A DNA stretch of 64,000 nt from Oscillospiraceae bacterium. Its GTDB lineage: Bacteria > Bacillota > Clostridia > Oscillospirales > Ruminococcaceae. Positions 16,586 through 47,760 of the stretch are shown here, piece by piece (the first letter of the stretch is position 1; each line of letters starts with the position of its first letter). The stretch is from positions 1 through 64,000 of the forward strand of contig SVMW01000005.1 in assembly GCA_015067215.1 (NCBI GenBank), given 5' to 3'. Below the pieces are notes generated by a model. That model worked only from the letters and a program-made list of their open reading frames with translations, searched no databases and was not told the origin of the DNA. The translations under genes were made by a program, and so were the position numbers.

Positions 16586-17623
16586 TTAAATCATATCCCA
16601 GGTGAGAATGGTGTCTTCAGCAAGGTCTGTAAGAACTTTTCTGCCAATAACAATATCGATGTATCTTGGGTTGATGCCTGTGCCGGGACGTTTTGGCATA
16701 AGGTCTTTTTCGGTGATAACTTCGCCAGCTTTCATATCTCTTGTAAGCACAAGTGAGCGGCGTGCTTCTCTTCTTGGTGTCATTTCGCAAGGGAAAACAG
16801 TTTTTTCGCTGCTGCCCAAAGCTGCCATAAGCACATTGACATTGTCGCAGAATTTGCGGAAGTCGGCAGGGTCACCGGCATGGTAGTGGTCGTTGCCTGT
16901 AAGGTTTTTGTTGAGGGTAAAGTGTTTTTCGATAACATCTGCACCAAGCATCCATGCTGCTGTAAGAATTGCCATATTGTCATCAGGCATTGTGTGGTCA
17001 GAATAGCCTATCTGAATGTCAGGGAACACCTTTTTAAGTGTTTCAATTACACGCAGGTTTGCATTTTCGTTGATTGTAGGATAGGACAGAACACAGTGAA
17101 GCACACAGATGTTGTTGTTGCCTTCGCTTTTGATAAGGCGCACAGCTTCTTCAACTTCAGAAAGGTAAGCTGCACCTGCAGAGATATAGATTGGTTTGCC
17201 TTTTTTTGCAATGTGGCGGATAAAAGGTGTGTTGGAAAGGTCGGAAGAAGAAATTTTGTAGATATCCACCATGCTGTCAAGATAGTCAGCGGAATCGTAG
17301 TCGAAAGGTGTGGACATAAAATCTATGCCGATTTCTTTGCAGTAGTCACAGAGTTCCTGATAATCTTCCTTGTTGAAATGATCATGTTTTAAAAACAGAG
17401 CGTGCTGTGTTGGTGTTGGTTCCTTGGTTGTGTCCCAGTAAGCAGGTGAGTTTTTGGAAACAATAGTGTTTGCTTTGTAGGACTGGAATTTTGCTGCGTC
17501 ACAGCCCGATTCCTTTGCTGCTTTAACGTACATTTTAGCAGCTTCCATTGGGCTGATGCCAAGTTCTTTGGCTGTATCGTAAAAGTTTACGCCGATTTCG
17601 GCAATAAGATATGGTTTTTTCAT
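16586..17623 (-). CDS. Nonulosonic acid synthase (NeuB/PseI/LegI family)
   Basis: A 345-residue enzyme of the N-acetylneuraminate synthase family, which condenses a hexosamine derivative with phosphoenolpyruvate to a nine-carbon sugar. The TIM barrel shows 'LIAEIGVNF', 'AAKFQSYKA', 'DFMSTPFD', 'YKISSSDLSN', 'LHCVLSYPT' and the metal-site region 'IGYSDHT'. 'EKHFTLNKNLTGNDH' follows, and a C-terminal SAF/antifreeze-like domain (about 285-345, 'RSLVLTRDMKAGEVIT') completes the family layout. The gene 4.4 kb upstream in the same operon encodes a CMP-sugar synthetase/PseG-like fusion. This makes a pseudaminic- or legionaminic-type sugar more likely than plain sialic acid. Exact substrate is not resolved, so no symbol is given. 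Confidence 0.9.
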   Translation of the reverse strand: MKKPYLIAEIGVNFYDTAKELGISPMEAAKMYVKAAKESGCDAAKFQSYKANTIVSKNSPAYWDTTKEPTPTQHALFLKHDHFNKEDYQELCDYCKEIGIDFMSTPFDYDSADYLDSMVDIYKISSSDLSNTPFIRHIAKKGKPIYISAGAAYLSEVEEAVRLIKSEGNNNICVLHCVLSYPTINENANLRVIETLKKVFPDIQIGYSDHTMPDDNMAILTAAWMLGADVIEKHFTLNKNLTGNDHYHAGDPADFRKFCDNVNVLMAALGSSEKTVFPCEMTPRREARRSLVLTRDMKAGEVITEKDLMPKRPGTGINPRYIDIVIGRKVLTDLAEDTILTWDMI

Positions 17624-17677: not shown

Positions 17678-18730
17678 TTAATTATTTATTACACCTTTTG
17701 ATTTAAGATAACTGTGCCACAATGAAATGGTGTTTTTTATGCCGATAATGCGGAACATAAGGCAGATTATGCCGCTTGCACCCTTTGGCAAAGGCAGTTT
17801 TTTAATTTTGCTGCCTGCAAGTTTTTCCACCATTTCAGCGGTGCGGAGAATTTCTTCCCTGCTTTTGCCGCTTTCGATAAGGTCAAAAAGGAAATTGCGG
17901 TAAAGGGAGTAAATCTCGGTTTTTTTGCTTTCGGCAAGAGCACGATATTTGTCGGAAAGATTCCAGAATTCAAGGTTGTTGTAGAAATCGTCATAATGAC
18001 AGATAATGCTCTTTATTGTCTTGTATGAGAAAACTGTGGAGATGGAGCCTTCCCTTGGCAGATAATACACAAAAGCGGAAACAGGCAGAATTGAAACTGT
18101 TTTTGCCTTTCGCAAAAGACGGAAAGCAAAATCGGCGTCTTCTCTGGCATAATAAACTGCCTGATAGGTGATGCCGTTGCGGGATATGAATTCATTTTTA
18201 ATGAATTTTGAGGAAGCTTCTGCCCTTACTTTGTTGTCAACCCACATCTGAATAGCGTATTCATCGTTTGTCAGCGGAGGATTGGCATATTCTGCAGGGG
18301 TAAAAGGTGCCTGAGGCATCCAGTCGTAAACGGTTCTGTTGCCTTTGAAGGTGTGGTCTTTGGTAAGTCCCATCTGAAGAATGTCAGGGTAATTATCTTC
18401 CACAATTTTAGCATATGCCTGCGGCAGCACGTTTTCGCACATTGTGTCATCACTGTCGATAAGATAGATGTATTTGCCCTGTGCGGCTTTTAAAAGTGCA
18501 TTTCTTGCGCTGGACGGACCGTCGTTTTCGCGTGTAATAACGGATATGCGGCTGTCCTTTGCAGCATAGGCGTTGAGAATGTCAACACTGTTGTCGGTGC
18601 TGCCGTCATCGACACAGATAAGTTCAAAGTCGTCAAAATTCTGTGCCAGAATGCTGTCAATGCAGTCACCTACCCACTTTGCTGTGTTGTAGACAGGTAT
18701 GCCTATTGAAAAGAAAGGTTGTTTGTTCAT
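17678..18730 (-). CDS. GT2 glycosyltransferase, tandem paralogue 4 of 4
   Basis: A 350-residue GT-A enzyme. The donor-binding 'ICVDDGSTDNS' near residue 39 and the metal motif 'YLIDSDDTMCENV' near residue 92 are intact. The C-terminal tail 'RIIGIKNTISLWHSYLKSKGVI' is shared with the three genes upstream (18815, 19833, 20912), so the four arose by tandem duplication. Each would add one sugar during assembly of the surface glycan; the variable middle part (about 130-280) probably sets acceptor choice. It lies 54 bp before the NeuB-type gene, same operon. Confidence 0.88.
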   Translation of the reverse strand: MNKQPFFSIGIPVYNTAKWVGDCIDSILAQNFDDFELICVDDGSTDNSVDILNAYAAKDSRISVITRENDGPSSARNALLKAAQGKYIYLIDSDDTMCENVLPQAYAKIVEDNYPDILQMGLTKDHTFKGNRTVYDWMPQAPFTPAEYANPPLTNDEYAIQMWVDNKVRAEASSKFIKNEFISRNGITYQAVYYAREDADFAFRLLRKAKTVSILPVSAFVYYLPREGSISTVFSYKTIKSIICHYDDFYNNLEFWNLSDKYRALAESKKTEIYSLYRNFLFDLIESGKSREEILRTAEMVEKLAGSKIKKLPLPKGASGIICLMFRIIGIKNTISLWHSYLKSKGVINN

Positions 18731-18814
18731 AAAAATCTCCGTAATGAAGGATTATTTACAGCAGGATATAAATTTGCTGCTCATAGTGCAGCAGTCATGG
18801 TGCTGAAATGGGTT

Positions 18815-19840
18815 TTATATAACACCTTTAAGTTTAAGATAATGGTAAAGCAGAACTGATGTTCGCTGCATTCCGATTATTCTGAAAAGCATGTGGAACA
18901 CACCGTTTACACCTTTTTCGGCAGGTAACTGTTTAATCTGCCTGCCAAACAGTTCTTCAATTATTCCAACGGCTTCAAGGGCTTCATCCTTTGAAAGTTC
19001 CCTGAAAACGGTAAGCGGATAATCGCGGTACTGTCTGTAAAATTCAGTTTCCCTGTCCTTTACTTTGTCCCGGATATTGTCGGAAAGTGCCCAGAACTGA
19101 ATGTTGTAATAGAAGTTTTTCCACTGTGTAAGCATGCTGCGGAAATATTTTGCACTCCACTTTGCAGAGGCAGAACCTTCCCTTGGCAGATAGTAGATAA
19201 AGGACTGAATGTCAGTGTAAACTATGCTGTCAATTTTGCGGTACAGCTGAAATGAAAAATCGCTGTCTTCAAAAGCAGTATATTCGTGACTGAATGTCAC
19301 ACCGCTGCGGTGCAGAAATTCTCTGCGGATAAATTTTGTGGCACTGAAGATGGAAAAACCGCGGTTGAGCCACATCATAACCACGCGCTCGTCTTTGGTG
19401 AGGGATTCATCAAAACATTCATCCCCCGGGTATGTCCAGCTGTACGGGAAAAATTCTCCGTTGGTTTTGCGGGCACAGCAGGTGTGCAGCACATCAGGAA
19501 AGTTGTTTTTGCACAAAATGTCGTATACCTGCGGCAACACGTTTTCGCACATGGTATCGTCACTGTCGATAACATATATGTATCTGCCCTGTGCGTTGTA
19601 AAAGATAGTGTTTCTTGCGCGGGATACACCGCCGTTTTCGCGGGAGATAACCCTGATGCGGTTGTCTTTGGAGGCATAACCGTTCAGCACTTCAAGACTG
19701 TTGTCGGTGCTGCCGTCATCCACACAGATAATTTCCATATCTTCAAACCCCTGACTTAAAATGCTGTCAAGGCAGTCTCCAACCCATTTTGCAGTGTTGT
19801 ATACGGGAAGGCCTATGGTGAAAAAAGGCTGGTTACTCAT
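18815..19840 (-). CDS. GT2 glycosyltransferase, tandem paralogue 3 of 4
   Basis: A 341-residue GT2 enzyme with 'ICVDDGSTDNSLEVL' and 'YVIDSDDTMCENV', closest in appearance to the gene downstream at 17678 (same 'SIL.Q.F.D.E.ICVDDGSTDNS' and 'DDTMCENVLPQ'). The track extends it to 19873, but the ATG at 19840 has an AAGGAG ribosome binding site 9 bp upstream and gives the same N-terminus (MSNQPFFTIGLPVYN) as its paralogues. With this start it overlaps the end of the upstream gene by 8 bp. Role: sugar transfer in glycan assembly; sugar not predictable. Confidence 0.87.
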   Translation of the reverse strand: MSNQPFFTIGLPVYNTAKWVGDCLDSILSQGFEDMEIICVDDGSTDNSLEVLNGYASKDNRIRVISRENGGVSRARNTIFYNAQGRYIYVIDSDDTMCENVLPQVYDILCKNNFPDVLHTCCARKTNGEFFPYSWTYPGDECFDESLTKDERVVMMWLNRGFSIFSATKFIRREFLHRSGVTFSHEYTAFEDSDFSFQLYRKIDSIVYTDIQSFIYYLPREGSASAKWSAKYFRSMLTQWKNFYYNIQFWALSDNIRDKVKDRETEFYRQYRDYPLTVFRELSKDEALEAVGIIEELFGRQIKQLPAEKGVNGVFHMLFRIIGMQRTSVLLYHYLKLKGVI

Positions 19841-20870
19841 CTGTGATGACTCCTTTTGATTTAAGATAACCATACATAAAGGATACGGTTTTTGTTATGC
19901 CGAAAATTCGGCACATAAGGTAAAGAATGGCGTTTCTGTTTAAAGGCAGAGGCACTTCTTTTATATAAGGGGTGATAAACTGTGCTATAACAGCACTTCT
20001 TTCCAGTGCAAATTCTCTGGTAATATCACCTTTAAGCTGTTCAAAACAGTAGTTGAGTTTATCTTTTATAAATTCTATACGTTTCTGTTCCACGCGTTTA
20101 CGGGTGGCGTCAGATAAATTCCAGAACTGTGTGTCTCTGAAAAGTTCCGATTCGTGGCACAGTGCAGTGTAGTAGGATTTGTGGGAAATATTGCTGGTTA
20201 TTGAACCTTCTCTGGGGTTAAAGTAGGTTATGGCACTGAAACTGCCGTAAGCCACGCTGTCAAGACAGCGGTAGCATCTCAGTGAAAAGTCAAAATCCTC
20301 ACTGATAATGTAACGGGTGTCAAAGGAAAGTCCGTTGGCGGTGATAAAGCTGTTTTTAAAAAACTTGCGGCATACAGACGGCATCAGTTTGCCGTTAAGC
20401 CACATAAGCACAGCGCGCTCATCCTTTGATATGTCTGCACCTAAAATTTCAGGGGCAGGGGAGGAATGGGGATATTCCTTGATTTCATCAAAGCGTTTTA
20501 CAGTGATGCCGACTTCCAGCATATCGGGATTGTTGTTTTTTATAATTGTATCGTAAGCATTCTGCAGTACATCGGTGTTCATGGTGTCATCACTGTCGAT
20601 AAAAAACAGATATTCACCATCTGCTGCATGCAGAACGGCATTGCGTGCGGTGGCAGGACCACCGTTTGCACGGGATATAACTTTTATTCTTGCATCTTTT
20701 GCAGCATAGCTGTTAAGTATACAGAGGCTTTTATCCTTTGAACCGTCATCTACGCAGATTATTTCAAAATTGTCAAAACCCTGACAGAGAATGCTGTCGA
20801 TGCATTCTCCAACCCATTTTTCGGTGTTGTAAACGGGAATACCCACTGTAAAAAATGGTTTGTTTTTCAT
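19833..20870 (-). CDS. GT2 glycosyltransferase, tandem paralogue 2 of 4
   Basis: A 345-residue GT2 enzyme starting 'MKNKPFFTVGIPVYNTEKW'. It has 'ICVDDGSKDKSLCIL' and 'FFIDSDDTMNTDV' and the common tail 'RIFGITKTVSFMYGYLKSKGVI'. The middle region differs most from paralogues 3 and 4, which suggests a different acceptor. GGGAGGTAAAAATG supplies the ribosome binding site. It is 41 bp after paralogue 1 and overlaps paralogue 3 by 8 bp, so translation of the pair is probably coupled. Confidence 0.87.
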   Translation of the reverse strand: MKNKPFFTVGIPVYNTEKWVGECIDSILCQGFDNFEIICVDDGSKDKSLCILNSYAAKDARIKVISRANGGPATARNAVLHAADGEYLFFIDSDDTMNTDVLQNAYDTIIKNNNPDMLEVGITVKRFDEIKEYPHSSPAPEILGADISKDERAVLMWLNGKLMPSVCRKFFKNSFITANGLSFDTRYIISEDFDFSLRCYRCLDSVAYGSFSAITYFNPREGSITSNISHKSYYTALCHESELFRDTQFWNLSDATRKRVEQKRIEFIKDKLNYCFEQLKGDITREFALERSAVIAQFITPYIKEVPLPLNRNAILYLMCRIFGITKTVSFMYGYLKSKGVITDE

Positions 20871-20911
20871 TTTTACCTCCCGGAAGTACCTGCTGGAATT
20901 TTTTGAAAGGA

Positions 20912-21949
20912 TTACTGTTTAAGCACAGCACCTTTCTTTTCAAGATAGGCATAAAGCCATCTGTAGGTTCTTTTAAGACCAAAGATGCGGTAAAGACGGA
21001 AGATAATTCCGTTGATGCCGCCTTCGGTTACAGGCAGGGAACATATATCTCTGCCAAAATATCCGTCCAACATATCAATCAGTCTGAAGCATTCTTCTTT
21101 AGGACGCTGCATTGCCATGCCCAATGTGCCGCTGCGCAGCTGACGCAGCAGGTCAAGGCGTTCTTTTTCAAGCTGCTGACGGGACCAGTCGGATATATCG
21201 TAAAATTCTATGTCATAATAAAATTCTGACCAACGGGACAAAACCCCTGCAACCGCTTTGTAGGACCAGTCTGTGGAAATGGATTTTTTGCGGTTTTTGT
21301 AGTAACGGAAGGCATAAAAATCTGCATATGCCATTGTGTCGGCCTTGCGGCAGAGGTTAAATGTGAAATCACTGTCTTCCTGTGCAAAAAGGCGTGGCAG
21401 AAATACAATGCCGTTATTGACAATAAGTTCGCGCTTTATGAACTTTGTCATAACCTGGTCAACGGTTTTTTTGCTAAGCCACATTCTTATCCAGCGTTCA
21501 TCCTTTGAAAAATCAGGGTTAAAGTATTCATCCCCGGGATAAACTGCAGGGCACAGGGTTTCCACACCATCTACCACACGGATAAAGCCTGTGTGCAGAA
21601 GGTCAGGAAAATTGTTTTTTTCAAGTTCTGCATATGCTTTTGCCAGAACTTCCTCACACATTGCATCATCGCTGTCCAAAACATAGATGTACCTGCCTTT
21701 AGCGGTGTAAAACATGGCATTTCTTGCGCTGGACGGGCCGTCGTTAGGGCGTGTGATGACGGTTATTCTGTCATCCTTTGCAGCGTATTCCCTTAAAACT
21801 TCAAGGCTGTTGTCGCTGCTGCCGTCATCTACAAAGATAATTTCAAAATCGGTAAAGCTCTGACTGTATATGCTGTCCATACATCTTTTGAGGTATGGAG
21901 AGGTGTTGTATACAGGAATACCAATACTGAAAAAAGGCTGTTTTTCCAT
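20912..21949 (-). CDS. GT2 glycosyltransferase, tandem paralogue 1 of 4
   Basis: A 345-residue GT2 enzyme starting 'MEKQPFFSIGIPVYNTSPYLKR'. It has 'IFVDDGSSDNSLEVL' and 'YVLDSDDAMCEEV', and the common tail in the form 'RIFGLKRTYRWLYAYLEKKGAV'. It is the most diverged of the four at the N-terminus ('SPYLKRCMDSIYSQS' where the others have 'KWVG.C.DSIL.Q'). It follows the CMP-sugar synthetase fusion gene by 100 bp, the longest gap in the operon; no terminator is visible in that gap. Confidence 0.87.
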   Translation of the reverse strand: MEKQPFFSIGIPVYNTSPYLKRCMDSIYSQSFTDFEIIFVDDGSSDNSLEVLREYAAKDDRITVITRPNDGPSSARNAMFYTAKGRYIYVLDSDDAMCEEVLAKAYAELEKNNFPDLLHTGFIRVVDGVETLCPAVYPGDEYFNPDFSKDERWIRMWLSKKTVDQVMTKFIKRELIVNNGIVFLPRLFAQEDSDFTFNLCRKADTMAYADFYAFRYYKNRKKSISTDWSYKAVAGVLSRWSEFYYDIEFYDISDWSRQQLEKERLDLLRQLRSGTLGMAMQRPKEECFRLIDMLDGYFGRDICSLPVTEGGINGIIFRLYRIFGLKRTYRWLYAYLEKKGAVLKQ

Positions 21950-22049: not shown

Positions 22050-23654
22050 TTACAGATTGTTGATAAGACCTGTAACACGGCGTCTGCCACCGCGGAGGTC
22101 GTTTTTGATAAGTGTCTTGTGGTAATATTCTCGGCTTTCCTTATCCATTTCTGCAAGCATATTCAGGTTGGAGCGGATAATGCTGTCGGTTGGGTTTAAA
22201 CCAAGGTAGATAAAGCCGTTTTCGTGATTGATAAAGCCGTGGGCTTCTTCGCGCTGGTTTTGTGCCATTACCATACTTGGAATACCAAGCAAAGCAAGTT
22301 CATAGGCTGTTCTGCCGCGGCTTGTAACACCTACATCGCAGGAAGCCATAAGTTTTGGCATATTGCTTACGTCGTAGTAAACAGAGATGTGAGGATAGCT
22401 GTTGTATTCCATAAGCTGTTCCACATTCTGTTTTGCACGGCCCAGAACTACAGTGAAGTTGTATTTTTCGTATTCAGGTGCTTTGATGATATCGAGAATT
22501 CTGTCGGTGTAGTTCTGTGGGTCTGCACCGCCAAAACTGATAAATACATTTTTCACCTGGTCGTTGATTTCAATAGGGTCATACAGCATAAACATTTTTG
22601 CGGCAATGAAATATTTTTCACCGTTGTGGAAATGTTTGCTGGCAGGGTTATCGTTGAAAAGTGCATTGAACACAAGGTCGGCGTGGTATGCACCTTCGCC
22701 GTCATCTTCAAAGTTGACAATCTTTGCATCAGGCATTGCAGCACGCAAAGCTATCATATAGTCTATGGAAGTTGTAAGGATATCGTTGATAAAGATATCA
22801 TACTGTTTTTCCTTAAGGATGGTAAAAAGTTCGCCTATGCCGTTTACAGGGATAAGGTTGTGTGTGGTAGTGCCGAAAATTTCAGGGGAAGTCTGGTTGA
22901 TATCATAGTAGATGTCAGGCTTTGAATAAAATTCGTCACTCAGTTCCAGCGCTCTGTAAACATGGCCTGTTCCGCGTTTGTTGTTGCCGTTAACATAAAA
23001 ACCAATCTTTGTGCGTTTGAGCAGGAATTCGGCTGTTCTCAGGTCCTGAAAAGTGTCGATGTCAACTGCTTCATCTTCGCCGATTTCGAAAACCTCAACC
23101 TTTGCACCTATGCGGCTGTCTTCTTTAAGAGCACGTCTGTTTGTAACAACAAAGGCGCCTGTTTCGAGAAAGTTTGCAGGCAGATACTGACGGTTAAGGC
23201 GTTTTTCGTAGTTAGGCTTAACCTTGCCGTTTTCGTCAAGTCCCCAGGAAAGGTGTGGGGCATTGATGGCGGAAATAACAGTGTCCAGGTCGTTTTTTAT
23301 TGCGTGTTCAATGGCGTTGTCCAGAGTTTCCACCTTTAAAGTTGGGCTGGTTGGCTGCATTGTAACAATGTAATCAAACTCTCTGCCAAGAGAAGCGTCG
23401 TAGATAACACCGTCAAGAGTTGCCTTGCTGTCGCACAGGTGTGCTGCACGGTGATGGACGGTAACACCCATCTGTTCAGCGACAATTTCAACCTGAGGAG
23501 AGTCGGTTGTAACAACGATGTCGGTGATGTACTTTGAATTTTTTGCATTGGCAATAGCATAGGAAATAAGCGGTTTGCCATTGATAAGACGAATGTTTTT
23601 GTTTGGAATACCAACACTGCCTGCACGGGCAGGAATAACGGCTAAAATTTTCAT
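22050..23654 (-). CDS. Bifunctional CMP-nonulosonate synthetase / PseG-like UDP-sugar hydrolase fusion
   Basis: A 534-residue two-domain protein. Residues 1-220 are a CMP-sugar synthetase (NeuA/PseF family) with the CTP-binding 'IPARAGSVGIPNKNIR' and 'TMQPTSPTLKVE'. Residues 225-534 resemble PseG, the UDP-2,4-diacetamido-2,4,6-trideoxy-hexose hydrolase. They have 'GTGHVYRALELSDEF' near 238, 'ISFGGADPQNYTDRIL' near 380 and 'TSRGRTAYELALLGIPSMVMAQNQREEAHGF' near 460. PseG releases UDP before the NeuB-type condensation, and the synthetase activates the product afterwards. The fusion therefore brackets the NeuB step encoded downstream. The dehydratase, aminotransferase and N-acetyltransferase needed earlier are not in the window. 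Pseudaminic or legionaminic acid cannot be told apart here. Confidence 0.88.
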   Translation of the reverse strand: MKILAVIPARAGSVGIPNKNIRLINGKPLISYAIANAKNSKYITDIVVTTDSPQVEIVAEQMGVTVHHRAAHLCDSKATLDGVIYDASLGREFDYIVTMQPTSPTLKVETLDNAIEHAIKNDLDTVISAINAPHLSWGLDENGKVKPNYEKRLNRQYLPANFLETGAFVVTNRRALKEDSRIGAKVEVFEIGEDEAVDIDTFQDLRTAEFLLKRTKIGFYVNGNNKRGTGHVYRALELSDEFYSKPDIYYDINQTSPEIFGTTTHNLIPVNGIGELFTILKEKQYDIFINDILTTSIDYMIALRAAMPDAKIVNFEDDGEGAYHADLVFNALFNDNPASKHFHNGEKYFIAAKMFMLYDPIEINDQVKNVFISFGGADPQNYTDRILDIIKAPEYEKYNFTVVLGRAKQNVEQLMEYNSYPHISVYYDVSNMPKLMASCDVGVTSRGRTAYELALLGIPSMVMAQNQREEAHGFINHENGFIYLGLNPTDSIIRSNLNMLAEMDKESREYYHKTLIKNDLRGGRRRVTGLINNL

Positions 23655-23677: not shown

Positions 23678-25048
23678 TTATCCTATAATAGTGCGGAATT
23701 TTGCAATAAGGGCGTCGATTTCTTCCTGGGAGGAAGCGTTTGTTTTTGTGCGGCCCTCGTAATATTTTTTAAGCTTTGCAAGGTTTTTGCGGTCAGGAAT
23801 TTCCTTGTCTCTGCGGTTGTTGAGCAGAGGGAAGTTCCAGGTGGTTGCCTTTGCAAGTTTTACAAGAAGAATGTTGGGGTAAGAGTTCCAGAATTTTATA
23901 TAGTTGTTTTCAAAAGCTCTTTCCTTTGCACAGTTGGTAGGGAAATAGTTTTTGCAGCTGTAGCTTGTGCTGTGGAAAGTTTCTTCCAGAACATCGCAGA
24001 GATTTTTATAAACAGGTGTTTCGCTCTGCATATAACATTCTGCGAATTTTGTTGTATCCAGCGGCTGATTAGGAGTATTTAAATCCATTTCAACAGTTGT
24101 TTTGAACTGGTCATAGGTTTTAACAGTTTCGCCGCCTTCAAAGAACGGATATGTCACGCGGTGATCAACAGGGACAGGTTCGAGAATAAATGCCTGCTTG
24201 CCTGCAGCATAAACTTCTGCTGCGGAGGTGCTTGTCCAGTTGTAAATTTTATCACAGTTGCTTATCCAGTGTTTTACAGGATATTTGGAGATGTAATAAA
24301 AGTTAGGGATTTCTTCGGCAAGTTTAAGCAGCACAGGGTTATCTGATTCGGACGGATGTGCGCGATAGATAAACTGATGGTCAGGATATTCCCTGCAGGC
24401 TGCACCAAACCAGTCAAGCACAGCTTTCTGACTGTCGATGGTGTTTTTTACAAACACATCGTTGAAATCTCCCGGTGCGGTGCCCATATTTTCCTTTGGC
24501 ATTGTTGCAATTGCAAAGGAGGATATGAACAGGCTGGTGGTTTTGTTTGTATCAAGCCCGAACTCACTGAAAAGTTCATCCCTGGTTTTTATAAATGGTC
24601 TGAACTCGTCACGGTAGAAGTCAAGGGAAATATAGCCGCATACTTTAAGAAATTCATCAGCTACATTATATTTTGCCATAAGGCGGTTTTTGGTGTTTTC
24701 TCCCCAGCAGATATGGCGTGTAACAAGGGCATCGCCGGCAAAATCCCAGCTGGTTGCGCCGTCAGCTTCGGCATAGCCGTTGCGCAGCACCTGTTCCCAC
24801 TGCAGGTTTACCACCTTGCGGAAACGGGAAGCGTGACGTGTAAAGAATTTGTAGGTGTCGGTTGTGTAACATGCAGAAACCACCAGCACCTCGGCGTCAT
24901 AGTCTTCAAAAGGGTTGTTAAGACAGGCCCAGGTGTTTAAAAATGCAACAGAAAAACCTCTGCGCTGGAGCTCTGCAGCAAGGAGAGTGATGTTTTCCAG
25001 TTCTCTGTTTTTAACTTCGTATACGAATAAAAAATCTGTTTTAATCAT
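23678..25048 (-). CDS. Surface carbohydrate biosynthesis protein, GT-B-like
   Basis: A 456-residue soluble protein. The segment 'YPDHQFIYRAHPSESDNPVLL' near 240 and 'WTSTSAAEVYAAGKQAFILEP' near 290 resemble the C-terminal donor half of a group of surface-polysaccharide proteins related to CDP-glycerol transferases and other GT-B enzymes. The N-terminal half ('DFLFVYEVKNRELENITLLAAELQRRGFSVAFLN') fits a first Rossmann domain. The start is 3 bp after the Wzt stop, so it is translationally linked to the exporter. It may add a terminal or modifying group before export. The family assignment is tentative. Confidence 0.6.
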   Translation of the reverse strand: MIKTDFLFVYEVKNRELENITLLAAELQRRGFSVAFLNTWACLNNPFEDYDAEVLVVSACYTTDTYKFFTRHASRFRKVVNLQWEQVLRNGYAEADGATSWDFAGDALVTRHICWGENTKNRLMAKYNVADEFLKVCGYISLDFYRDEFRPFIKTRDELFSEFGLDTNKTTSLFISSFAIATMPKENMGTAPGDFNDVFVKNTIDSQKAVLDWFGAACREYPDHQFIYRAHPSESDNPVLLKLAEEIPNFYYISKYPVKHWISNCDKIYNWTSTSAAEVYAAGKQAFILEPVPVDHRVTYPFFEGGETVKTYDQFKTTVEMDLNTPNQPLDTTKFAECYMQSETPVYKNLCDVLEETFHSTSYSCKNYFPTNCAKERAFENNYIKFWNSYPNILLVKLAKATTWNFPLLNNRRDKEIPDRKNLAKLKKYYEGRTKTNASSQEEIDALIAKFRTIIG

Positions 25049-25051: not shown

Positions 25052-26323
25052 TTATTTAACCTGTACAATGTGAATAGGTTCCAGAACACTGTAGCCCCAG
25101 GAACCAGGGAACCATTTGATTGTCTGCTGGTTTTTGTTTTCTTCCACCTCAAAGCCGAAAGCATTGATAACATCATCGTGGTAAAGGTAACGTTCGGTAT
25201 CAACAAAACCCATGGATAAGTCGCCCATATATTTGCCCGGTGTGATGGTGGAAAGGTCAATTTCTATATCAACATGGCAGTTGTCGCCTTTGGTGATTTT
25301 AAACGGTTCAGAAAAGTATGTGCCGGTAAAGTTTACACCGGCATATTTCAGTGTGCAGCGGATAACCTCTTTGTCATAATCCTCAAAACAGTTGTAATGG
25401 ATACGCATTTTAAGCTTGTCAGGCACTGTGAAAACAAGGTTGTCGCGGTCAAGAATTTCGTAACCCAGCATTTTTGCTGTGTGTGTTGCAGCAGGGCTGC
25501 CGTTGGAAATTTCAGGGAATTTTCCGCCCATAGTCATGGAAATTGTTTCGTCGGAATAAACCTTGATAGCTTCTTCAACGTTGCCGTCATAGATGATTTT
25601 GCCCTCTTTGAGAACTATACATCTGGAGCAGAGCTGACGGATTGTTGCCATGTTGTGGCTTACATACAGAACTGTTTTGCCCTCTGTGTGAGCAGCTTCG
25701 TACATTTTTGTAAGACATTTTTTCTGGAATTTGATATCGCCAACAGCCAGAACTTCGTCCATAATCATAATGTCACTGTCAAGGTGTGCAGCAACGGAGA
25801 ATGCAAGTTTTACATACATACCGCTGGAATATCTTTTAACAGGTGTGTCAATAAAGTCGCGGCATTCGCTGAACTCGATAATCTGGTCCATTTTGGCATC
25901 AATTTCTTCCTTTTTCATGCCGAGGATAGTTCCGTTCATATATACATTTTCTCGGCCTGTGAGTTCAGGGTTGAAGCCGGTGCCAACCTCCAGCATACAG
26001 GCGATTTTGCCGCGGAGGGTAATGGAACCTTCGCTTGGCGCGGTGATGCGGGAGATAAGCTTGAGCATTGTGGATTTGCCTGCGCCGTTAACGCCGATAA
26101 CACCAACTGCTTCGCCCGGCATAACTGTAAGGTTTATGCCGTTGAGTGCCATAAAGGTCTGACCTTTGAGACGTTCTTCGCCAATGATGGAGTTAGGGTC
26201 TTCCTTGCCCTGAACTTTAGCCCAGAAGCTCTGCCAGTCAGCACGGAGAGTTGTGCCGCCTATAACACCCATACGATAGCGTTTTTTAAGATTTTTTATT
26301 TCAATAATAGGTTTTTGTTCCAT
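25052..26323 (-). CDS. wzt: ABC transporter ATPase for polysaccharide export, Wzt-type with C-terminal glycan-binding domain
   Basis: A 423-residue protein: an ATPase domain (about 1-260) and an extra C-terminal domain (about 285-423). The Walker A 'GVNGAGKSTMLKL', the signature 'VKRYSSGMYVKLAFSVA' and Walker B 'DIMIMDEVLAVGD' are complete. The N-terminal 'LKKRYRMG' plus a long insert before Walker A are typical of the O-antigen/teichoic-acid exporter group (Wzt, TagH). The C-terminal beta-rich domain is what Wzt uses to recognise the finished chain end. With the permease encoded just upstream it would export the lipid-linked glycan. The chain-terminating modification it might read is unknown; the 456-aa protein encoded next is a candidate. 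Confidence 0.92.
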   Translation of the reverse strand: MEQKPIIEIKNLKKRYRMGVIGGTTLRADWQSFWAKVQGKEDPNSIIGEERLKGQTFMALNGINLTVMPGEAVGVIGVNGAGKSTMLKLISRITAPSEGSITLRGKIACMLEVGTGFNPELTGRENVYMNGTILGMKKEEIDAKMDQIIEFSECRDFIDTPVKRYSSGMYVKLAFSVAAHLDSDIMIMDEVLAVGDIKFQKKCLTKMYEAAHTEGKTVLYVSHNMATIRQLCSRCIVLKEGKIIYDGNVEEAIKVYSDETISMTMGGKFPEISNGSPAATHTAKMLGYEILDRDNLVFTVPDKLKMRIHYNCFEDYDKEVIRCTLKYAGVNFTGTYFSEPFKITKGDNCHVDIEIDLSTITPGKYMGDLSMGFVDTERYLYHDDVINAFGFEVEENKNQQTIKWFPGSWGYSVLEPIHIVQVK

Positions 26324-26347: not shown

Positions 26348-27187
26348 TTAAACTGTATCGATAAAGGTTTTTTCTACTTTGCTGAAAAGAACAAGGCCGA
26401 TAAAGGCAATAACCAGTGTCAGCACAATGGAGAAAATCCAGCTTTCCAGCATAAAGTGGCCGGAACCGAGAAATGCCCATTTGAAGTTGTTCATAACAGG
26501 TGTCATAGGGTTAATTGTAAGAAGTTTGTACATAAGGCCGTTTGTTGTGTCCATTGTGTAAACAACAGGTGTTACATACATCCACAGCTGTACTGCAAGA
26601 GGAAGCACATAAACAAAGTCACGGTATTTTGCACAAAGTGCAGAGGACACAAGCCCGATTGCCAGTGAAAGTATTGCTGTATGAAGAATAAACACAGGTG
26701 CAAGCAGCATTCTTGCAGAGAATGCAACATCTCCTTTTAATGCATATATGCCGAAAATCAGGATAAGAGCAACAAACTGGATAAGGAAGTTGATTACAGA
26801 ACTGATTGTCTGGGAGATAGGCACTGTAAGGCGGGGGAAGTAAATTTTGCCGTAAACAGCAGCGTTTGCACCAAAAATGTTGGAGTTGTTTGTGGTGTTG
26901 GTGCTGCAGAGATTCCACAGTGTGTTACCAGCCATATAAAACAGGAACTGAGGCACACCGTCGGTGGAAAGGCCTGCAAACTGACCAAAGATAAAGGTGA
27001 AGATGATACTTGTCACAAGCGGGTTGAGAACAAGCCATACAGGACCGAGAATAGTCTGCTTGTAAGCAATTTTAAAGTTTCTTGTTACAAAGTTTACAAT
27101 AAGGTCCTTGTATTCCAGGGTTTCCTTAAGGTCGAAATCAAGCCACTTGTTGCTGGCGGTGATAACAACTTCTTTTTTGTTTTCCAT
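26348..27187 (-). CDS. wzm: ABC transporter permease for polysaccharide export, Wzm/TagG-type
   Basis: A 279-residue ABC-2 family permease with an amphipathic N-terminus and six predicted membrane helices. The cytoplasmic segment 'YKDLIVNFVTRNFKIAYKQTILGPVWLVLNPL' is the usual N-terminal hallmark of this group, as is 'MAGNTLWNLCSTNTTNNSNIF'. It lies 24 bp before the ATPase gene and together they would form the exporter of the operon's glycan. Length and topology are normal. Confidence 0.92.
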   Translation of the reverse strand: MENKKEVVITASNKWLDFDLKETLEYKDLIVNFVTRNFKIAYKQTILGPVWLVLNPLVTSIIFTFIFGQFAGLSTDGVPQFLFYMAGNTLWNLCSTNTTNNSNIFGANAAVYGKIYFPRLTVPISQTISSVINFLIQFVALILIFGIYALKGDVAFSARMLLAPVFILHTAILSLAIGLVSSALCAKYRDFVYVLPLAVQLWMYVTPVVYTMDTTNGLMYKLLTINPMTPVMNNFKWAFLGSGHFMLESWIFSIVLTLVIAFIGLVLFSKVEKTFIDTV

Positions 27188-37844: not shown

Positions 37845-39158
37845 ATACAGATAGAGATAACAAAAAAACAGCAGGAATTTATTGAAAGCACTGCAGATGA
37901 AGTGCTGTTCGGCGGCGCGGCAGGCGGCGGAAAAAGTTATGCACAGCTTATTGATGCCTTTCTGTATGCGGTGAAATATCCTTTTTCAAAACAGCTGATA
38001 CTGCGAAGAACACTGCCTGAACTTGAAAAAAGTTTAATACGTGTGTCACTGGGGCTGTTTGACAGCAGAATTTACAGGTACAATGCCTCAAAGCACACAG
38101 GCACATTTGCCAACGGAAGCATAATTGATTTCGGTTACTGCGACAGGGAAAACGATGTTTTCAGGTATCAGTCTGCGGAATATGATGTTATCCGTTTTGA
38201 CGAACTGACACATTTTACCGAGGATATGTATGTTTATCTTATAAGCCGTATACGAGGGGTAAATGACTATCCCAAGCAGATTAAAAGCTCCACAAATCCG
38301 GGAGGGGTGGGACACAGCTGGGTGAAGGCGAGGTTTATTGATGTTTGCAGCGGCGGTTTTTACAGTGACGAAAACGGAACCCGGCAGTTTATACCTGCAA
38401 AGGTAGGGGACAACAGTTTTCTGATGAAAAATGACAAAGGATACCTCAAAAGGCTTAAACGCCTGGGAGAAAAGGACCGCAGGGCACTTCTGTATGGCGA
38501 CTGGGATATTTTTGACGGACAGTATTTCGGCGAATTCCGCCGCAGCATACATGTGATAAAACCTTTTATAATTCCCGGCCACTGGAAAAGATATTTCACT
38601 ATGGACTACGGGCTGGACATGTTTGCAGGCTATTTTATTGCGGTGGACACCTTTGGCAAGGCGTATGTCTACAGAGAAATATACAAACCCAACCTGATTA
38701 TCAGCAAAGCGGCAAAGGAGATTATTGATGCGTCAGAAAAGGATGTATCGGTTTATTATGCACCGCCTGACCTGTATAACCGCAGGCAGGATACAGGCAA
38801 AAGTGTGGCGGAGATTTTTTCGGAATACGGAATTCTGCTGACCAAAAGTGAGAACAACCGCGTACAGGGATGGTACAACCTTAAGGAGTGGCTTATGCCT
38901 TATGAGGACGAAACCGGCGCCGTCACCGCGAACCTTGTGATTTTTGAAAACTGCACAAATCTTATCAGGACACTGCCTGCTCTGACGTATGACAGCACAA
39001 ATCCGAATGATGTGGCTGTAACCCCGCACGAAATAACCCATGCACCTGATGCACTGCGGTATTTTGTTGCAGGAAGGCCTGCACCTGCGGCTAAAGCTCA
39101 GCTGCAGGAAGACGAGGAAAACTACGACAGACAGCTGGAGAATTTTATTAATTTTTAA
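37845..39158 (+). CDS. terL: Phage terminase large subunit, non-standard start
   Basis: The packaging ATPase/nuclease. The frame has Walker A 'FGGAAGGGKSY', Walker B 'YDVIRFDELTHF', the nuclease aspartates in 'FTMDYGLDMF' and the late acidic 'THAPDALRYFV'. Homologous N-termini read like 'KQ.EFI....DEVLFGGAAGGGKS', and exactly this ('KKQQEFIESTADEVLFGG') is encoded upstream of the first usable GTG at 37902, back to a TGA at 37839. The only codons there that could start are AUA (37845, 8 bp after GGGAGG) or AUU. A GTG start at 37902 would put Walker A at residue 3 and lacks a ribosome binding site. AUA start is used here (437 aa). An alternative is a +1 shift in the A7 run from the ATG at 37838. 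Confidence 0.85.
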   Translation: MQIEITKKQQEFIESTADEVLFGGAAGGGKSYAQLIDAFLYAVKYPFSKQLILRRTLPELEKSLIRVSLGLFDSRIYRYNASKHTGTFANGSIIDFGYCDRENDVFRYQSAEYDVIRFDELTHFTEDMYVYLISRIRGVNDYPKQIKSSTNPGGVGHSWVKARFIDVCSGGFYSDENGTRQFIPAKVGDNSFLMKNDKGYLKRLKRLGEKDRRALLYGDWDIFDGQYFGEFRRSIHVIKPFIIPGHWKRYFTMDYGLDMFAGYFIAVDTFGKAYVYREIYKPNLIISKAAKEIIDASEKDVSVYYAPPDLYNRRQDTGKSVAEIFSEYGILLTKSENNRVQGWYNLKEWLMPYEDETGAVTANLVIFENCTNLIRTLPALTYDSTNPNDVAVTPHEITHAPDALRYFVAGRPAPAAKAQLQEDEENYDRQLENFINF

Positions 39159-39168
39159 AGGAGGAAAC

Positions 39169-39741
39169 ATGCTTTACAGATATCCTAAACAACAGGAAAA
39201 AACAGCGTATGAAACTATTGAAGGAAACAGAAGATATGATAATTATACAGGGGCAGACCTTCCGCCTGTACCGTATATTTATTCAGGGCAGGGCAGCACT
39301 GCGAAGCAGACAGCGGGCTCGTCAGGCAAGGTGAAAGCTGCAGTGAATACGGCAGCACAGCCTTCAGCGGAGGATGCTGCACAGGCAGCAAGACAGCAGA
39401 AGATTGACAGCATTAACACCCTGAAAAGCAGGGAGAAAAAATATCTCGGCAACAGCTATAATGCACAGCGTCTTGAGGCACAGAGCAACAATGACGATGC
39501 CATGAGAAGCCTGTATATCGCATATATGCAGGGAATAAAAAATATGCCACAGCAGACAGCTTTGTGGGGTGCGGGCGGCGAAATTGAAAGCCTTAAAACA
39601 CAGCACCGCCTCAATTATGAAGACAACCGTGCAAAACAGATAAGGGAATATAACGGGATACTGAGCGATATTCAGCAGCGTTATGACCGCGACCTGTGGG
39701 AGCTGGAGCAGAAATATCTGAAACAGCTTCTGAACCTTTAA
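39169..39741 (+). CDS. Phage virion-associated protein, unknown function
   Basis: A 190-residue hydrophilic protein, rich in Ala, Gln and Tyr. The N-terminal third is low-complexity ('YRYPKQQEKTAYETIEG...AAVNTAAQPSAEDAAQAARQQK') and the C-terminal two thirds are helical, likely coiled coil ('LKTQHRLNYEDNRAKQIREYNGILSDIQQRYDRDLWELEQKYLKQLLNL'). The ATG at 39169 has AAAGGAGG. In P22-like phages, proteins of this kind near the portal are internal or ejection proteins; that is only an analogy. I do not recognise a family. Confidence 0.75.
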   Translation: MLYRYPKQQEKTAYETIEGNRRYDNYTGADLPPVPYIYSGQGSTAKQTAGSSGKVKAAVNTAAQPSAEDAAQAARQQKIDSINTLKSREKKYLGNSYNAQRLEAQSNNDDAMRSLYIAYMQGIKNMPQQTALWGAGGEIESLKTQHRLNYEDNRAKQIREYNGILSDIQQRYDRDLWELEQKYLKQLLNL

Positions 39742-39753
39742 GGAGGTGAGTGT

Positions 39754-39924
39754 ATGGTTTTCTTTGCTGGAATTATAGTCGGCGCAGTAATAGGAGCCGT
39801 GTGCTACCGATATTTTTATACCCTTGAATGCAGCCGCAGTGAAGTTATATGCAACAGTGCAGAAAAAGACAGGGAAATGCACAAACAGCTGGAGAGACTT
39901 ATACGCTACGGCAATGATATGTAA
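39754..39924 (+). CDS. Small phage membrane protein (56 aa)
   Basis: Too short for the ORF track. 'MVFFAGIIVGAVIGAVCYRYFYTLECSRSEVICNSAEKDREMHKQLERLIRYGNDM' has one N-terminal membrane helix with GxxxG-type spacing and a charged tail. It starts with an excellent AGGAGGTGAG ribosome binding site 12 bp after the previous stop and ends 9 bp before the portal start, so it is a real operon member. Function unknown. Confidence 0.75.
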   Translation: MVFFAGIIVGAVIGAVCYRYFYTLECSRSEVICNSAEKDREMHKQLERLIRYGNDM

Positions 39925-39933
39925 GGAGGAAAA

Positions 39934-41403
39934 ATGAAAAACAGAAAACCTGACTGCCACAGCATATGGCAGGAATATCAGACAGACCTGGCGTACAAGA
40001 ATTCGCTGGATCTGTTTGAAAAAACAAAACAGCAGCAGAACTTTTTTCTGGGCAGGCAGTGGGAAGGGCTTAATGCTCCTGACCTGGAAAAACCTGTGCT
40101 CAACTTTGTGAAAAGGGTGGTCAACTATCTTATCAGTGTGCTTATGGTGAACGATGTTGCCATATCGCTTAAAGGCAGTTTCAGCGACGATATCACTGTA
40201 AGAGCAGTGGAAAAAGAGGTTGAGCAGATAAACGAAAACACAAAGTTTAAAGCCAAGCTTAAAAATATTATCAAGAACACCGCAATTGACGGTGACAGCG
40301 CAGTTTATGTAAGGTATGACCCTGACAAAAAGGCAGCGGTGAGTGAAATTATCTGCAACACCAATATTGTTTTCGGTGACAGAACCACCAACGAAGTGGA
40401 AAAACAGCCATATATCATTCTGGTAAAGCATATTGCAAGAACAGTGTTTGAAGATATGTACCCTGATACAGATGAAAGAGGAATTTACCATTTCGGCACA
40501 GCAGATGACACTGTTACGGTGCTTATCCGCTTTTACCGCAAAAATGGCACGGTGCATTTTATGCAGACAACTGAACACAATGTGCTGACGGACGAAACTG
40601 ACACAGGACAGAAACTGTACCCTGTTGCTTTTATGAACTGGGAGACAGTGAGGGATTCCTACCACGGCATAGGTGCGGTGGAAACCATTATCCCAAACCA
40701 GATTGCCGTCAACAAACTGTGGGCAATGGCGCTGTTGTATCAGAAGAACAATGCATTCCCGAAAGTGTTTATTGACAAGACAAAGCTGGATAAGTGGAAC
40801 TCTTCTCCCGGTGCGGTTATGGGGGTTATCGGCAACCCGAACGAGGTGGTTGCAACCAGCTTCAAGGCAAATGATATGTCGGCACAGCTGATGGGAATTG
40901 TGGAAAAAACTATAAGTTATACAAAGGATTTCATGGGAGCAAATGACGCCGCCCTGGGCAATGTAAACCCTACAAATACATCTGCGATTGTGGCACTGCA
41001 GAAAACCGCAGTTGCACCGCTGGAACTTCAGCGTATGTCGCTGTATCAGTTTGTGGAGGATTATGCCCGCATTGTGTATGACATTATTCGCACCCATTAC
41101 GGCATAAGAAAAACTGTAATTGATGATGAGGCGATTTATGTGGACTACCGCAATATAAACGATGATGCAACGCTGACAGTGAATATAGGGCCTTCGGAAT
41201 ACTGGAGTGAATCGGCACAGATACAGACACTGGACAACCTGTTTACAAAGGGCATTATTGACGACGCGGTGGTTTACCTTGAGAATCTGCCGGGCAGAGT
41301 GCTGCCAAACAAAAACAAGATTATTTCAGAAATCAAAGCGGCAAGATATCAGCTTGCGGGAAGAGATTTTTCGGAGGAGGTGACGGAGTATGAAACTTTG
41401 TAG
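39934..41403 (+). CDS. Phage portal protein
   Basis: A 489-residue protein in the usual portal position after the terminase. 'SLDLFEKTKQQQNFFLGRQWEGLNAPDLEKPVLNFVKRVVNYLISVLMVNDVAI' at the N-terminus and 'NWETVRDSYHGIGAVETIIPNQIAVNKLWAMALLYQKNNAFPKV' in the middle match the wing-stem pattern of P22-type and related portals: a small-molecule-like beta domain followed by helices. Length is in range for Firmicutes podo- and siphoviruses (450-550). The portal forms the dodecameric DNA entry ring of the head. Its end overlaps the next small gene by 14 bp. Confidence 0.85.
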   Translation: MKNRKPDCHSIWQEYQTDLAYKNSLDLFEKTKQQQNFFLGRQWEGLNAPDLEKPVLNFVKRVVNYLISVLMVNDVAISLKGSFSDDITVRAVEKEVEQINENTKFKAKLKNIIKNTAIDGDSAVYVRYDPDKKAAVSEIICNTNIVFGDRTTNEVEKQPYIILVKHIARTVFEDMYPDTDERGIYHFGTADDTVTVLIRFYRKNGTVHFMQTTEHNVLTDETDTGQKLYPVAFMNWETVRDSYHGIGAVETIIPNQIAVNKLWAMALLYQKNNAFPKVFIDKTKLDKWNSSPGAVMGVIGNPNEVVATSFKANDMSAQLMGIVEKTISYTKDFMGANDAALGNVNPTNTSAIVALQKTAVAPLELQRMSLYQFVEDYARIVYDIIRTHYGIRKTVIDDEAIYVDYRNINDDATLTVNIGPSEYWSESAQIQTLDNLFTKGIIDDAVVYLENLPGRVLPNKNKIISEIKAARYQLAGRDFSEEVTEYETL

Positions 41404-41581
41404 CTGTTCGGAACGGCCTCTTGGCATTGTTGACAGCAGGGTGGTTATGAAGGAAAACAAACCTTATCAGCTGCTGAGATTTGGATGCACTAACAAAAAG
41501 TGTGCCAAATATCACAATATTGTTGCAGAAAAGTATGTGAATCTGCTTGATAACACCGATACTTTTACGCTGGAAATTTAA
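41390..41581 (+). CDS. Small cysteine-rich phage protein, zinc-ribbon-like
   Basis: A 63-residue protein 'MKLCSCSERPLGIVDSRVVMKENKPYQLLRFGCTNKKCAKYHNIVAEKYVNLLDNTDTFTLEI' with two Cys pairs (CSC and CTNKKC) that could bind zinc. It overlaps the portal 3' end and has GGAGGTGACGGAGT before the ATG. Small zinc-ribbon proteins of unknown role are common between portal and scaffold genes in Firmicutes phages. Confidence 0.7.
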   Translation: MKLCSCSERPLGIVDSRVVMKENKPYQLLRFGCTNKKCAKYHNIVAEKYVNLLDNTDTFTLEI

Positions 41582-41618
41582 GACAAAAAATACATTTTAA
41601 ACTGAATAAATATGCAGG

Positions 41619-41650
41619 TTTTGCCCGTTTTGAAGGGCAAAGCATTTTTT
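41619..41650 (+). terminator. Intra-operon terminator-like hairpin before scaffold gene
   Basis: TTTGCCC - 8 nt - GGGCAAA followed by GCATTTTTT. It lies just upstream of the scaffold ribosome binding site, so it may lower or retain read-through before the high-copy head proteins. Confidence 0.6.
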
Positions 41651-41681
41651 GCACCATTTTTGGTGGGAAAGGAAATTTTTT

Positions 41682-42521
41682 ATGATAGAAAATACCATTT
41701 CTATAGATAACAGCAGCGACACTGAAGCAGAAAAAGTAAATGCATTATTGTTGCAGCACAACAAAGAAACTGCACAGCAGGACATAGGTGAAAACGAAGA
41801 AAGCGCAGTTGAAAAGGACTGCACAGACAACGGAAAAACACTGCCTGCCGGGCAGGAACCCGCAGAAGACGAACAGGAAAAACCATCCGAGGAAACTGTG
41901 GAACTTACGCTGTACGGAGAAAAGGTACAGCTGGCAAAAAGCCAGGCACTTGCAGCTGCCCAGAAGGGCATGGCTTTTGAACATATCAAAGGTCAGCTTT
42001 CGGCTGCAAAAAATGATGTAAGACTTAAAACGCTGGAGAATATTGCCGCGATGAAAGGGCAGACCATAGCTGCTTTTATCGGTGATTTGCAGCACAGGGC
42101 AATGGCGGATGACATTGCTGCAAAATACGGCGGCATTGAAAATGCCCCTACACAGGTGCTGAGTGAAGCGGTGAGAACACTGGAGCAGAGCCGGATTTCC
42201 CTTGAACAAAGGGAAGCACAGGCAAGACAGCACCATGTAAATCTTCAGCTTATGGAATTTCTGGAAAAAAACCCGGGTGTAAAAGAAATTCCGCAGGAGG
42301 TTATGCAGCTGGCAGAAAAAGGTGAAAATATTGCCCTTGCATACAGCCGTTTCAATGAAAACAGACTGGCGAAGGAACTGAGTGAAGCTAAAAGGGAGCT
42401 GGAAATGATTAAAAGCGAAGAAAAGGCAAAACGCAGCAGCACGCCGACAGCTATGAACTCAGGTGCCGCAAACGAAAGCAGAGAAAACGAATTTTTAAAA
42501 CTTATGAAAAGCACATGGTAA
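41682..42521 (+). CDS. Phage capsid scaffolding protein
   Basis: A 279-residue acidic, almost entirely helical protein directly before the capsid gene. It has a disordered acidic N-terminus ('ENTISIDNSSDTEAEKVNALL...EDEQEKPSEETVELTLYGEKVQL'), a long coiled-coil centre ('LSEAVRTLEQSRISLEQREAQARQHHVNLQLMEFLEKN') and a basic end ('KSEEKAKRSSTPTAMNSGAANESRENEFLKLMKS'). This is the layout of scaffolds that nucleate procapsids. The track start at 41649 is replaced by the ATG at 41682, which has AAAGGA upstream. Confidence 0.8.
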   Translation: MIENTISIDNSSDTEAEKVNALLLQHNKETAQQDIGENEESAVEKDCTDNGKTLPAGQEPAEDEQEKPSEETVELTLYGEKVQLAKSQALAAAQKGMAFEHIKGQLSAAKNDVRLKTLENIAAMKGQTIAAFIGDLQHRAMADDIAAKYGGIENAPTQVLSEAVRTLEQSRISLEQREAQARQHHVNLQLMEFLEKNPGVKEIPQEVMQLAEKGENIALAYSRFNENRLAKELSEAKRELEMIKSEEKAKRSSTPTAMNSGAANESRENEFLKLMKSTW

Positions 42522-42585
42522 AAAATGTGCAGAAAAACGTTGTTCCGTTTACATACAACGAAAAAAGAAAAGGAGAATTTGAAAT

Positions 42586-43635: not shown

Positions 43636-43650
43636 TAGTTAATCCAGACA

Positions 43651-43684
43651 AAAATCCGCTGCAACCAATGCGGCGGATTTTTAA
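43651..43684 (+). terminator. Terminator-like hairpin after capsid gene
   Basis: AAATCCGC - 13 nt - GCGGATTTTTT, 16 bp after the capsid stop. It probably lets scaffold and capsid be made in excess over the tail genes. Confidence 0.8.
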
Positions 43685-43701
43685 AAAAGGAGGGAGTTTA
43701 T

Positions 43702-44061
43702 TTGACGGCAAAAGAAATTTACGAAAACGCGCTGGCACTCAGCCTGTCCCATATTGATGAGGAAGACGACCTGAGCTTTTTTGCAGTCAGACTTTTCAAC
43801 ATTATGCTGGCGGAACTGTTTGAAAACAACAACAGTCTGAGGATAAAAAAAGGTGAAAAACCACTGGTTCAGCCTGCAAAAATTGCATCGCTGGAGGAAG
43901 AAGTGAATTACGAAATACAGCTTTATGCACCTATGAGTTACGCTCTTGCATCAAAGCTGCTGCAGGCACAGGAAGAAACCAATCTTGCAGCAATTTACAA
44001 CAACCAGTATGTAACACTGCTCAGCATGGTTACACCTGCAGTGGAAATGGAGGTTGTGTAG
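43702..44061 (+). CDS. Phage head-tail connector-like protein
   Basis: A 119-residue, mostly helical protein ('AKEIYENALALSLSHIDEEDDLSFFAVRLFNIMLAELFENNNSLR...MSYALASKLLQAQEETNLAAIYNNQYVTLLSM'). Helical proteins of about 110-170 aa following the capsid gene usually bind the portal (P22 gp4 / HK97 gp6 role). The start codon is TTG with AGGAGG 9 bp upstream. Its stop is directly followed by the next ATG. Assignment by position and fold pattern. Confidence 0.65.
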   Translation: MTAKEIYENALALSLSHIDEEDDLSFFAVRLFNIMLAELFENNNSLRIKKGEKPLVQPAKIASLEEEVNYEIQLYAPMSYALASKLLQAQEETNLAAIYNNQYVTLLSMVTPAVEMEVV

Positions 44062-45924: not shown

Positions 45925-45927
45925 ATT

Positions 45928-46296: not shown

Positions 46297-46313
46297 TGTA
46301 AAGAGGTGATTAT

Positions 46314-46493
46314 ATGGCAGCGGTACATAAAGCAATGCCTTTGGGTGCGGTTACAACAGGGGAAGGCAGCTGCGGCTGTGTAACTGTTGACGTGGTGGAA
46401 GAAAACAACCTGAGCCCTGTTCAGTCAGGGGCGGTGTATGCCCACGTTGCCGCACAGGTAGGCAATATTGAAATATTACTTGAAACGATATAA
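46314..46493 (+). CDS. Small phage protein (59 aa)
   Basis: Below the track cut-off. 'MAAVHKAMPLGAVTTGEGSCGCVTVDVVEENNLSPVQSGAVYAHVAAQVGNIEILLETI', preceded by AGAGGTGAT and ending 13 bp before the tail-fibre start. The 'NNLSPVQSGAVYAHVA.QVGNIE.LL' end is seen in short proteins next to tail-fibre genes of Firmicutes phages. Probably a fibre-associated protein; function unknown. Confidence 0.7.
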   Translation: MAAVHKAMPLGAVTTGEGSCGCVTVDVVEENNLSPVQSGAVYAHVAAQVGNIEILLETI

Positions 46494-46506
46494 AGGAGAA
46501 GGATAA

Positions 46507-47748: not shown

Positions 47749-47760
47749 GGCGGTGATGCT

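Follow-up and report, generated by a model that had tools for sequence, protein, structure and literature searches.

The gene at 22050-23654 encodes a CMP-nonulosonate synthetase fused to a predicted PseG-like hydrolase. Together with a gene for a NeuB-family synthase on the same strand it forms, on balance probably, a short pathway of two genes leading from what is most likely a household UDP-sugar to a CMP-activated nonulosonate (nonulosonic acid, NulO) or a close ulosonic acid. That this cassette, hereafter the module, makes a sialic-acid-like sugar we regard as very probable; its reactions, substrate and product we infer. The best explanation of the data presented below is that the module represents a new precursor specificity and not a broken pseudaminic (Pse) or legionaminic (Leg) acid pathway. 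The locus was studied in a 64,000-nucleotide stretch of DNA (the window) from a metagenome-assembled genome (MAG) of 1.80 Mb in 60 contigs, estimated as 82.85% complete and 2.96% contaminated, and was compared with fusion loci across bacteria and archaea.

Results

Architecture of the fusion and its gene neighborhood

The fusion is encoded by an intact open reading frame with an ATG start and no internal stops (Table 1). Residues 5-124 match Pfam CTP_transf_3 (PF02348) at 84.6 bits, above the gathering cut-off of 22.6, while the NCBIfam PseF (TIGR03584) and PseG (TIGR03590) models match residues 4-213 at 109 bits and residues 216-472 at 107.1 bits, the latter over nearly the full model; both scores are far above chance and under the respective equivalog cut-offs of 205.7 and 153.55. 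Among solved chains, PpNeuA (9t4z, titled CMP-Kdn synthetase) and other CMP-sialate synthetases come closest to the N-terminal half, and the C-terminal half gives a profile match to PseG 3hbm with an E-value of 8e-15. An AlphaFold2 model built with 11 family members (mean pLDDT 86.7, pTM 0.63) resembles, by Foldseek, both NeuA-type CMP-NulO synthetase structures and Campylobacter jejuni PseG 3hbm, the latter with a TM-score of 0.76 by target length and an rmsd of 3.4, and thus predicts a PseG-like fold. The intact reading frame, the profile matches, the model and the recurrence described below bear out the preliminary description of the gene as a fusion of these two domains, and an assembly accident is not a credible origin since full-length homologues recur: of 199 family genomes, 11 carry one, counting the host, and a scan of GTDB genome contigs yielded about 39 more named carriers.

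Table 1. Features of the glycan locus in the window and of the second NulO locus on host contig C21
Feature	Position	Strand	Basis
NeuB-family NulO synthase with C-terminal SAF domain, module clade	16586..17623	-	PF03102 260 bits; PF08666 46 bits; tree; motifs
Four tandem GT2-type glycosyltransferase paralogues, 345-352 aa	17678-18730, 18815-19873, 19833-20870, 20912-21949	-	between fusion and NeuB
Fusion gene, 534 aa	22050..23654	-	CMP-NulO synthetase domain, residues ~1-213; PseG-like domain, residues ~216-534
C-terminal PseG-like UDP-sugar hydrolase domain (predicted)	22053..23009	-	TIGR03590, 3hbm profile match, motif count
N-terminal CMP-NulO synthetase (CTP_transf_3) domain	23016..23654	-	PF02348, PseF matches; nearest solved chains 9t4z, NeuA
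TIGR04396 "surface carbohydrate biosynthesis protein", candidate partner	23678..25048	-	164.6 bits, cut-off 125
Wzt/TagH-like ABC exporter ATPase	25052..26323	-	profile match
Wzm-like ABC exporter permease	26348..27187	-	profile match
LegB (TIGR04180)	C21		508.3 bits, cut-off 475
LegC (TIGR04181)	C21		487.6 bits, cut-off 420
NeuC	C21		403.9 bits, cut-off 235.9
NeuB	C21		491.5 bits, cut-off 399.65
NeuA-like, two Gfo/Idh-type oxidoreductases, PtmE/LegX-like CBS-nucleotidyltransferase	C21		named from sequence reading, no curated match

The NeuB gene that had been assigned to the same operon does lie in the fusion's gene run and on its strand, with four GT2 genes in between, the first of which, the one scanned, matches PF00535. 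Its product carries the PF03102 and SAF domains in that order, has B. subtilis SpsE (1vli) as its nearest solved structure, and scores under both curated cut-offs, with 297.5 bits against 399.65 for NnaB (TIGR03569) and 239.7 against 340.25 for PseI (TIGR03586). In the sister genome G185 (L035), of the same genus, fusion and NeuB are adjacent and the four GT2 genes are absent between them; relative to that genome, the quartet at 17678-21949 appears as a local tandem expansion or insertion. Upstream of the fusion, again on the same strand, are the TIGR04396 gene and a Wzt/Wzm-type ABC exporter. A gene similar in appearance to the former stands by the Leg locus of contig C21 (L013:14967-16289, forward strand), and the TIGR04396 family may have a link to NulO glycans.

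Among the long open reading frames of the window, read as translations and in part also scanned with profiles, none was recognised as encoding a dehydratase, aminotransferase, acetyltransferase or hydrolysing epimerase for Pse, Leg or Neu synthesis, in agreement with the initial reading that the early steps are missing there. Loss of such genes at a contig edge can be rejected: the glycan genes are internal to the window, with purine genes on one side and a phage-like block on the other, and most other loci are without early genes as well. The phage-like block itself (~37900-51800, forward strand) comprises terminase-, portal-, capsid- and tail-like reading frames and, within it, a lysozyme-like one (50556-51293), all named from their translations.

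A conserved active-site change in the PseG-like domain

Alignment of 50 fusions to 3hbm, a set in which L044 and L096 are near-duplicates and L099, with no reading frame called, is absent, places a histidine at the position of PseG His17 (residue 231 of the fusion) in every sequence. The Asp76-His77-Tyr78 motif of PseG, kept as Asp-His-Tyr in all three stand-alone PseGs compared, 3hbm included, is in turn replaced by Asp-x-Leu in 50/50 fusions, with an asparagine before the aspartate in nearly all of them. Rangarajan et al. reportedly described in 2009 that His17 of PseG is catalytic and that Tyr78 lies in the active site. Retention of the former with substitution of the latter by leucine fits, but does not prove, a domain in which the reaction is kept and the sugar is changed; such a difference in substrate is an indirect reading of one active-site motif.

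The domain is GT-B-like, and the Aerococcus kribbianus fusion gives a weak match to Pfam Glyco_tran_28_C, so the C-terminal half could instead be some GT-B enzyme, for instance a transferase, that uses the CMP-sugar or UDP-sugars as substrate, with the substrate of NeuB coming from scavenged or catabolic ManNAc or mannose. The Serratia marcescens KL1 and KL2 loci lend this some color: neuA and neuB are the sole sialic acid genes recognised there, neuB is needed, and the strains yield both Kdn and Neu5Ac (PMC9000132). We nevertheless consider such a role quite unlikely, as the PseG profile matches over nearly its full length, PseG is the best structural match for this half of the protein, the His17 position is invariant, and neither GlcNAc 2-epimerase nor NanE is found in any of the 11 fusion-carrying family genomes.

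Recurrence of fusion and NeuB as a two-gene module

Beyond the family, carriers of the fusion include Lachnospiraceae, Eubacterium, A. kribbianus, Pseudomonas alcaligenes, a Porticoccus, Flavobacteriales, Methanobrevibacter, Methanohalophilus and Methanocalculus, so that the module spans Bacillota, Bacteroidota, Pseudomonadota and archaea. A NeuB akin to that of the window is present in 48 of 50 distinct fusion loci, and in 42 of them it lies on the same strand and at most 350 nt from the fusion. In a tree of 85 NeuB sequences, 47 module NeuBs make up one side of a branch with moderate support (90/78; 87% of bootstrap trees), and the NeuB of contig C21 falls outside this clade; the motif HC[VIM]LxYP is found in 47/47 module NeuBs and in none of the 38 others. 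Within the literature covered, which was partial, we found no paper describing the fusion.

Several loci depart from or extend this arrangement. L074 holds an intact, full-length fusion with neither NeuB nor polysaccharide genes adjoining. One protein of ~455 aa with no match in Pfam (e.g., L092:15315-16679) occurs near the module at 11 loci from both archaea and bacteria (L089, L090, L092, L095, L097, L098, L099, L102-L104 and L109) and is a candidate transferase or partner. Directly downstream of the G185 module (L035:12502-18488) are a second TIGR04396-like gene and genes for a 291-aa NeuB-like, a 392-aa NeuA-like and a CBS-nucleotidyltransferase-like protein; this short NeuB-like form clusters with those of L046 and L049, which likewise have a NeuA-like protein of ~390 aa as neighbour, and the arrangement looks like another NulO-related operon type.

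The solitary fusion of L074 and the four GT2 genes that split the pair in the window might be taken to mark the module as a remnant, part of a NulO pathway that arrived by transfer and has ceased to function in this lineage. This is very improbable: the two genes have stayed intact, here as in dozens of lineages, and their motifs are kept across bacteria and archaea.

Early pathway genes in module-carrying genomes

Genes for the early steps are scarce around the module. At a distance of up to ~10 kb from the fusion, six of 50 loci have a DegT aminotransferase, five a dehydratase of PseB/CapE/PglF type scoring >100 bits, and one a NeuC/WecB-type enzyme. The clearest case in which diamino-sugar genes may feed the module is a Flavobacteriales locus (L093:6962-12680), where DegT and a PglF-type dehydratase lie directly upstream of fusion and NeuB.

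Genome-wide searches, in every one of which the control genomes gave a positive signal, extend this picture. No true DegT is present in the module carriers G078 (100% complete, seven contigs), G069 (97%), G084 (97%), G092 (91%) and G189 (83%), where the apparent matches of 42-54 bits are in fact Cys/Met-metabolism, class V and Orn/Lys/Arg decarboxylase enzymes. The same holds for three cultured organisms: A. kribbianus, whose best match is a class I/II aminotransferase; Methanohalophilus euhalobius, in which no DegT was established, the best match again being class I/II and a second, weaker one (42.8 bits) having no assignment; and P. alcaligenes RU38D, with no DegT match at all. Six of these eight DegT-less genomes also lack NeuC/WecB. 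The corresponding Epimerase_2 family is absent from eight of 10 family genomes and from A. kribbianus; P. alcaligenes and Methanohalophilus do have members of it and could arrive at ManNAc by that means, and a route to ManNAc through GlcNAc 2-epimerase or NanE is rejected for the 11 family genomes, as noted above. Furthermore, PseB does not exceed its cut-off in any of these 11, and PseC is found in none of the genomes tested, leaving them without the PseB and PseC that the pseudaminic acid pathway requires. It is important to note that most module genomes are MAGs, that the completeness figures are those of the family genomes, and that some module genomes do contain DegT and dehydratase genes.

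To our knowledge, every 4-aminotransferase that serves in making Pse, Leg or bacillosamine belongs to the DegT family, and in the DegT-less genomes the precursor therefore cannot carry this amino group by any familiar route. In light of these results, the earlier view that the rest of the pathway is missing holds insofar as early genes are absent at most loci and DegT is absent from whole genomes, but what it presented as a gap is the normal state of the module and not a local loss.

A second nonulosonate locus in the host

The preliminary description suggested looking for the early genes elsewhere in the genome, and a search recovered LegB and LegC on contig C21, in a near-complete legionaminic-type locus with its own NeuC, NeuB and NeuA-like genes (Table 1). 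No LegH acetyltransferase was recognised on the part of C21 examined; a NeuD-family gene below cut-off lies on C57, a PglF-type dehydratase on C1, and the host's DegT complement consists of LegC and one weak match. Contamination is an unlikely source of the C21 LegB and LegC because G185, which shares the genus and carries the fusion, has a LegC homologue.

These findings open the way for a reading in which the module carries out the late steps of a Leg- or Pse-type pathway, with LegB and LegC from C21 or the C1 dehydratase supplying a UDP- or GDP-2,4-diacetamido sugar. The LegC homologue of G185 and the dehydratase and DegT genes beside the module in L093 are in keeping with it, as are the requirement for B. 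subtilis SpsG in UDP-linked Leg synthesis (PMC7439481) and the use of sps genes to find PseG in Clostridium (PMC13317340). We judge it unlikely, if the most serious competitor. Since the C21 locus has its own NeuC, NeuB and NeuA-like genes, its LegB and LegC need not serve the fusion; moreover, eight module genomes have no DegT whatsoever, one well-supported NeuB subclade mixes DegT-containing (G080, G117) with DegT-less (G078, G084) genomes, and PseG Tyr78 is replaced in every fusion aligned. The choice originally posed, between early genes located elsewhere and another precursor, can accordingly be narrowed: the host does have a dehydratase and an aminotransferase on C21, and the comparison across genomes, in which the module goes without early genes at most loci and in DegT-less genomes, favors another precursor.

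Discussion

A model for the module

We propose that the PseG-like domain would convert a UDP-sugar to free sugar and UDP, that the module NeuB would condense the free sugar with phosphoenolpyruvate to a nonulosonate, and that the N-terminal domain of the fusion would activate the latter with CTP to the CMP-nonulosonate, from which the glycosyltransferases of the locus could transfer the NulO to an ABC-exported surface glycan; polysialyltransferase-type genes (PF07388) are found in the module loci of G078 and A. kribbianus (L041 and L112). The UDP-sugar would most likely be a household one and not a Pse or Leg precursor, with UDP-GlcNAc first in line, ahead of UDP-GalNAc or a UDP-hexose. UDP-GlcNAc takes this place because it is universal and because, on stereochemical reasoning, the L-altro substrate of PseI shares its C2 configuration with D-glucosamine. 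As an alternative within the same proposal, hydrolysis could be accompanied by 2-epimerisation to ManNAc, giving Neu5Ac. More broadly, and more tentatively, bacteria and archaea may share a two-gene route to a NulO that falls outside the Neu, Pse and Leg series, leading directly from a household UDP-sugar such as UDP-GlcNAc by way of a PseG-like hydrolase that has a new specificity and is fused to the CMP-activating enzyme.

Comparison with known systems

The closest parallel is the B. subtilis sps system for CMP-legionaminic acid, in which SpsE, SpsF and SpsG, along with SpsC, SpsD and SpsM, have been reported as needed for UDP-linked Leg synthesis and transfer (PMC7439481). It has the same three late activities, of NeuB, NeuA and PseG type, and likewise uses UDP-linked precursors, but SpsF and SpsG are separate genes, whereas the module has a fusion, its own NeuB clade and the Tyr78 change. 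B. subtilis also requires SpsC, SpsD and SpsM, which have no counterparts at most module loci, and in eight module genomes DegT is absent altogether. With the Campylobacter and Helicobacter Pse pathway (PseB-C-H-G-I-F) the module shares PseG- and PseF-type domains and the histidine at the His17 position; it differs in scoring below the PseF, PseG and PseI cut-offs, in having DxL for DHY78, and in the genomes tested, which are without PseC and without PseB over its cut-off. The C21 Leg pathway (LegB, LegC, NeuC/LegG, NeuB, NeuA-like, PtmE-like) is predicted to serve NulO synthesis in the same cell, yet it relies on a NeuC-type hydrolysing epimerase and on a NeuB from outside the module clade.

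Two further systems resemble the module in economy of genes or in domain fusion. The S. marcescens KL1 and KL2 loci show that two-gene NulO loci with no early genes recognised can be functional, although the Serratia NeuB has a sugar phosphate isomerase domain in addition, and a PseG-like domain has not been described there. In Leptospira interrogans, too, two NulO pathway steps are fused, but the NeuB-phosphatase protein joins a different pair of steps and has a complete Leg cluster alongside (PMC3438082).

Implications

Scoring NulO capacity by early genes (PseB/C, LegB/C, NeuC) would call organisms that have the module alone incapable or incomplete, among them gut Lachnospiraceae and strains of Aerococcus, Pseudomonas and Methanohalophilus. 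If the module works as proposed, its carriers can make a NulO, possibly of an undescribed kind, and NulOs carried by surface glycans are relevant to charge, to recognition by the immune system and to the adsorption of phages.
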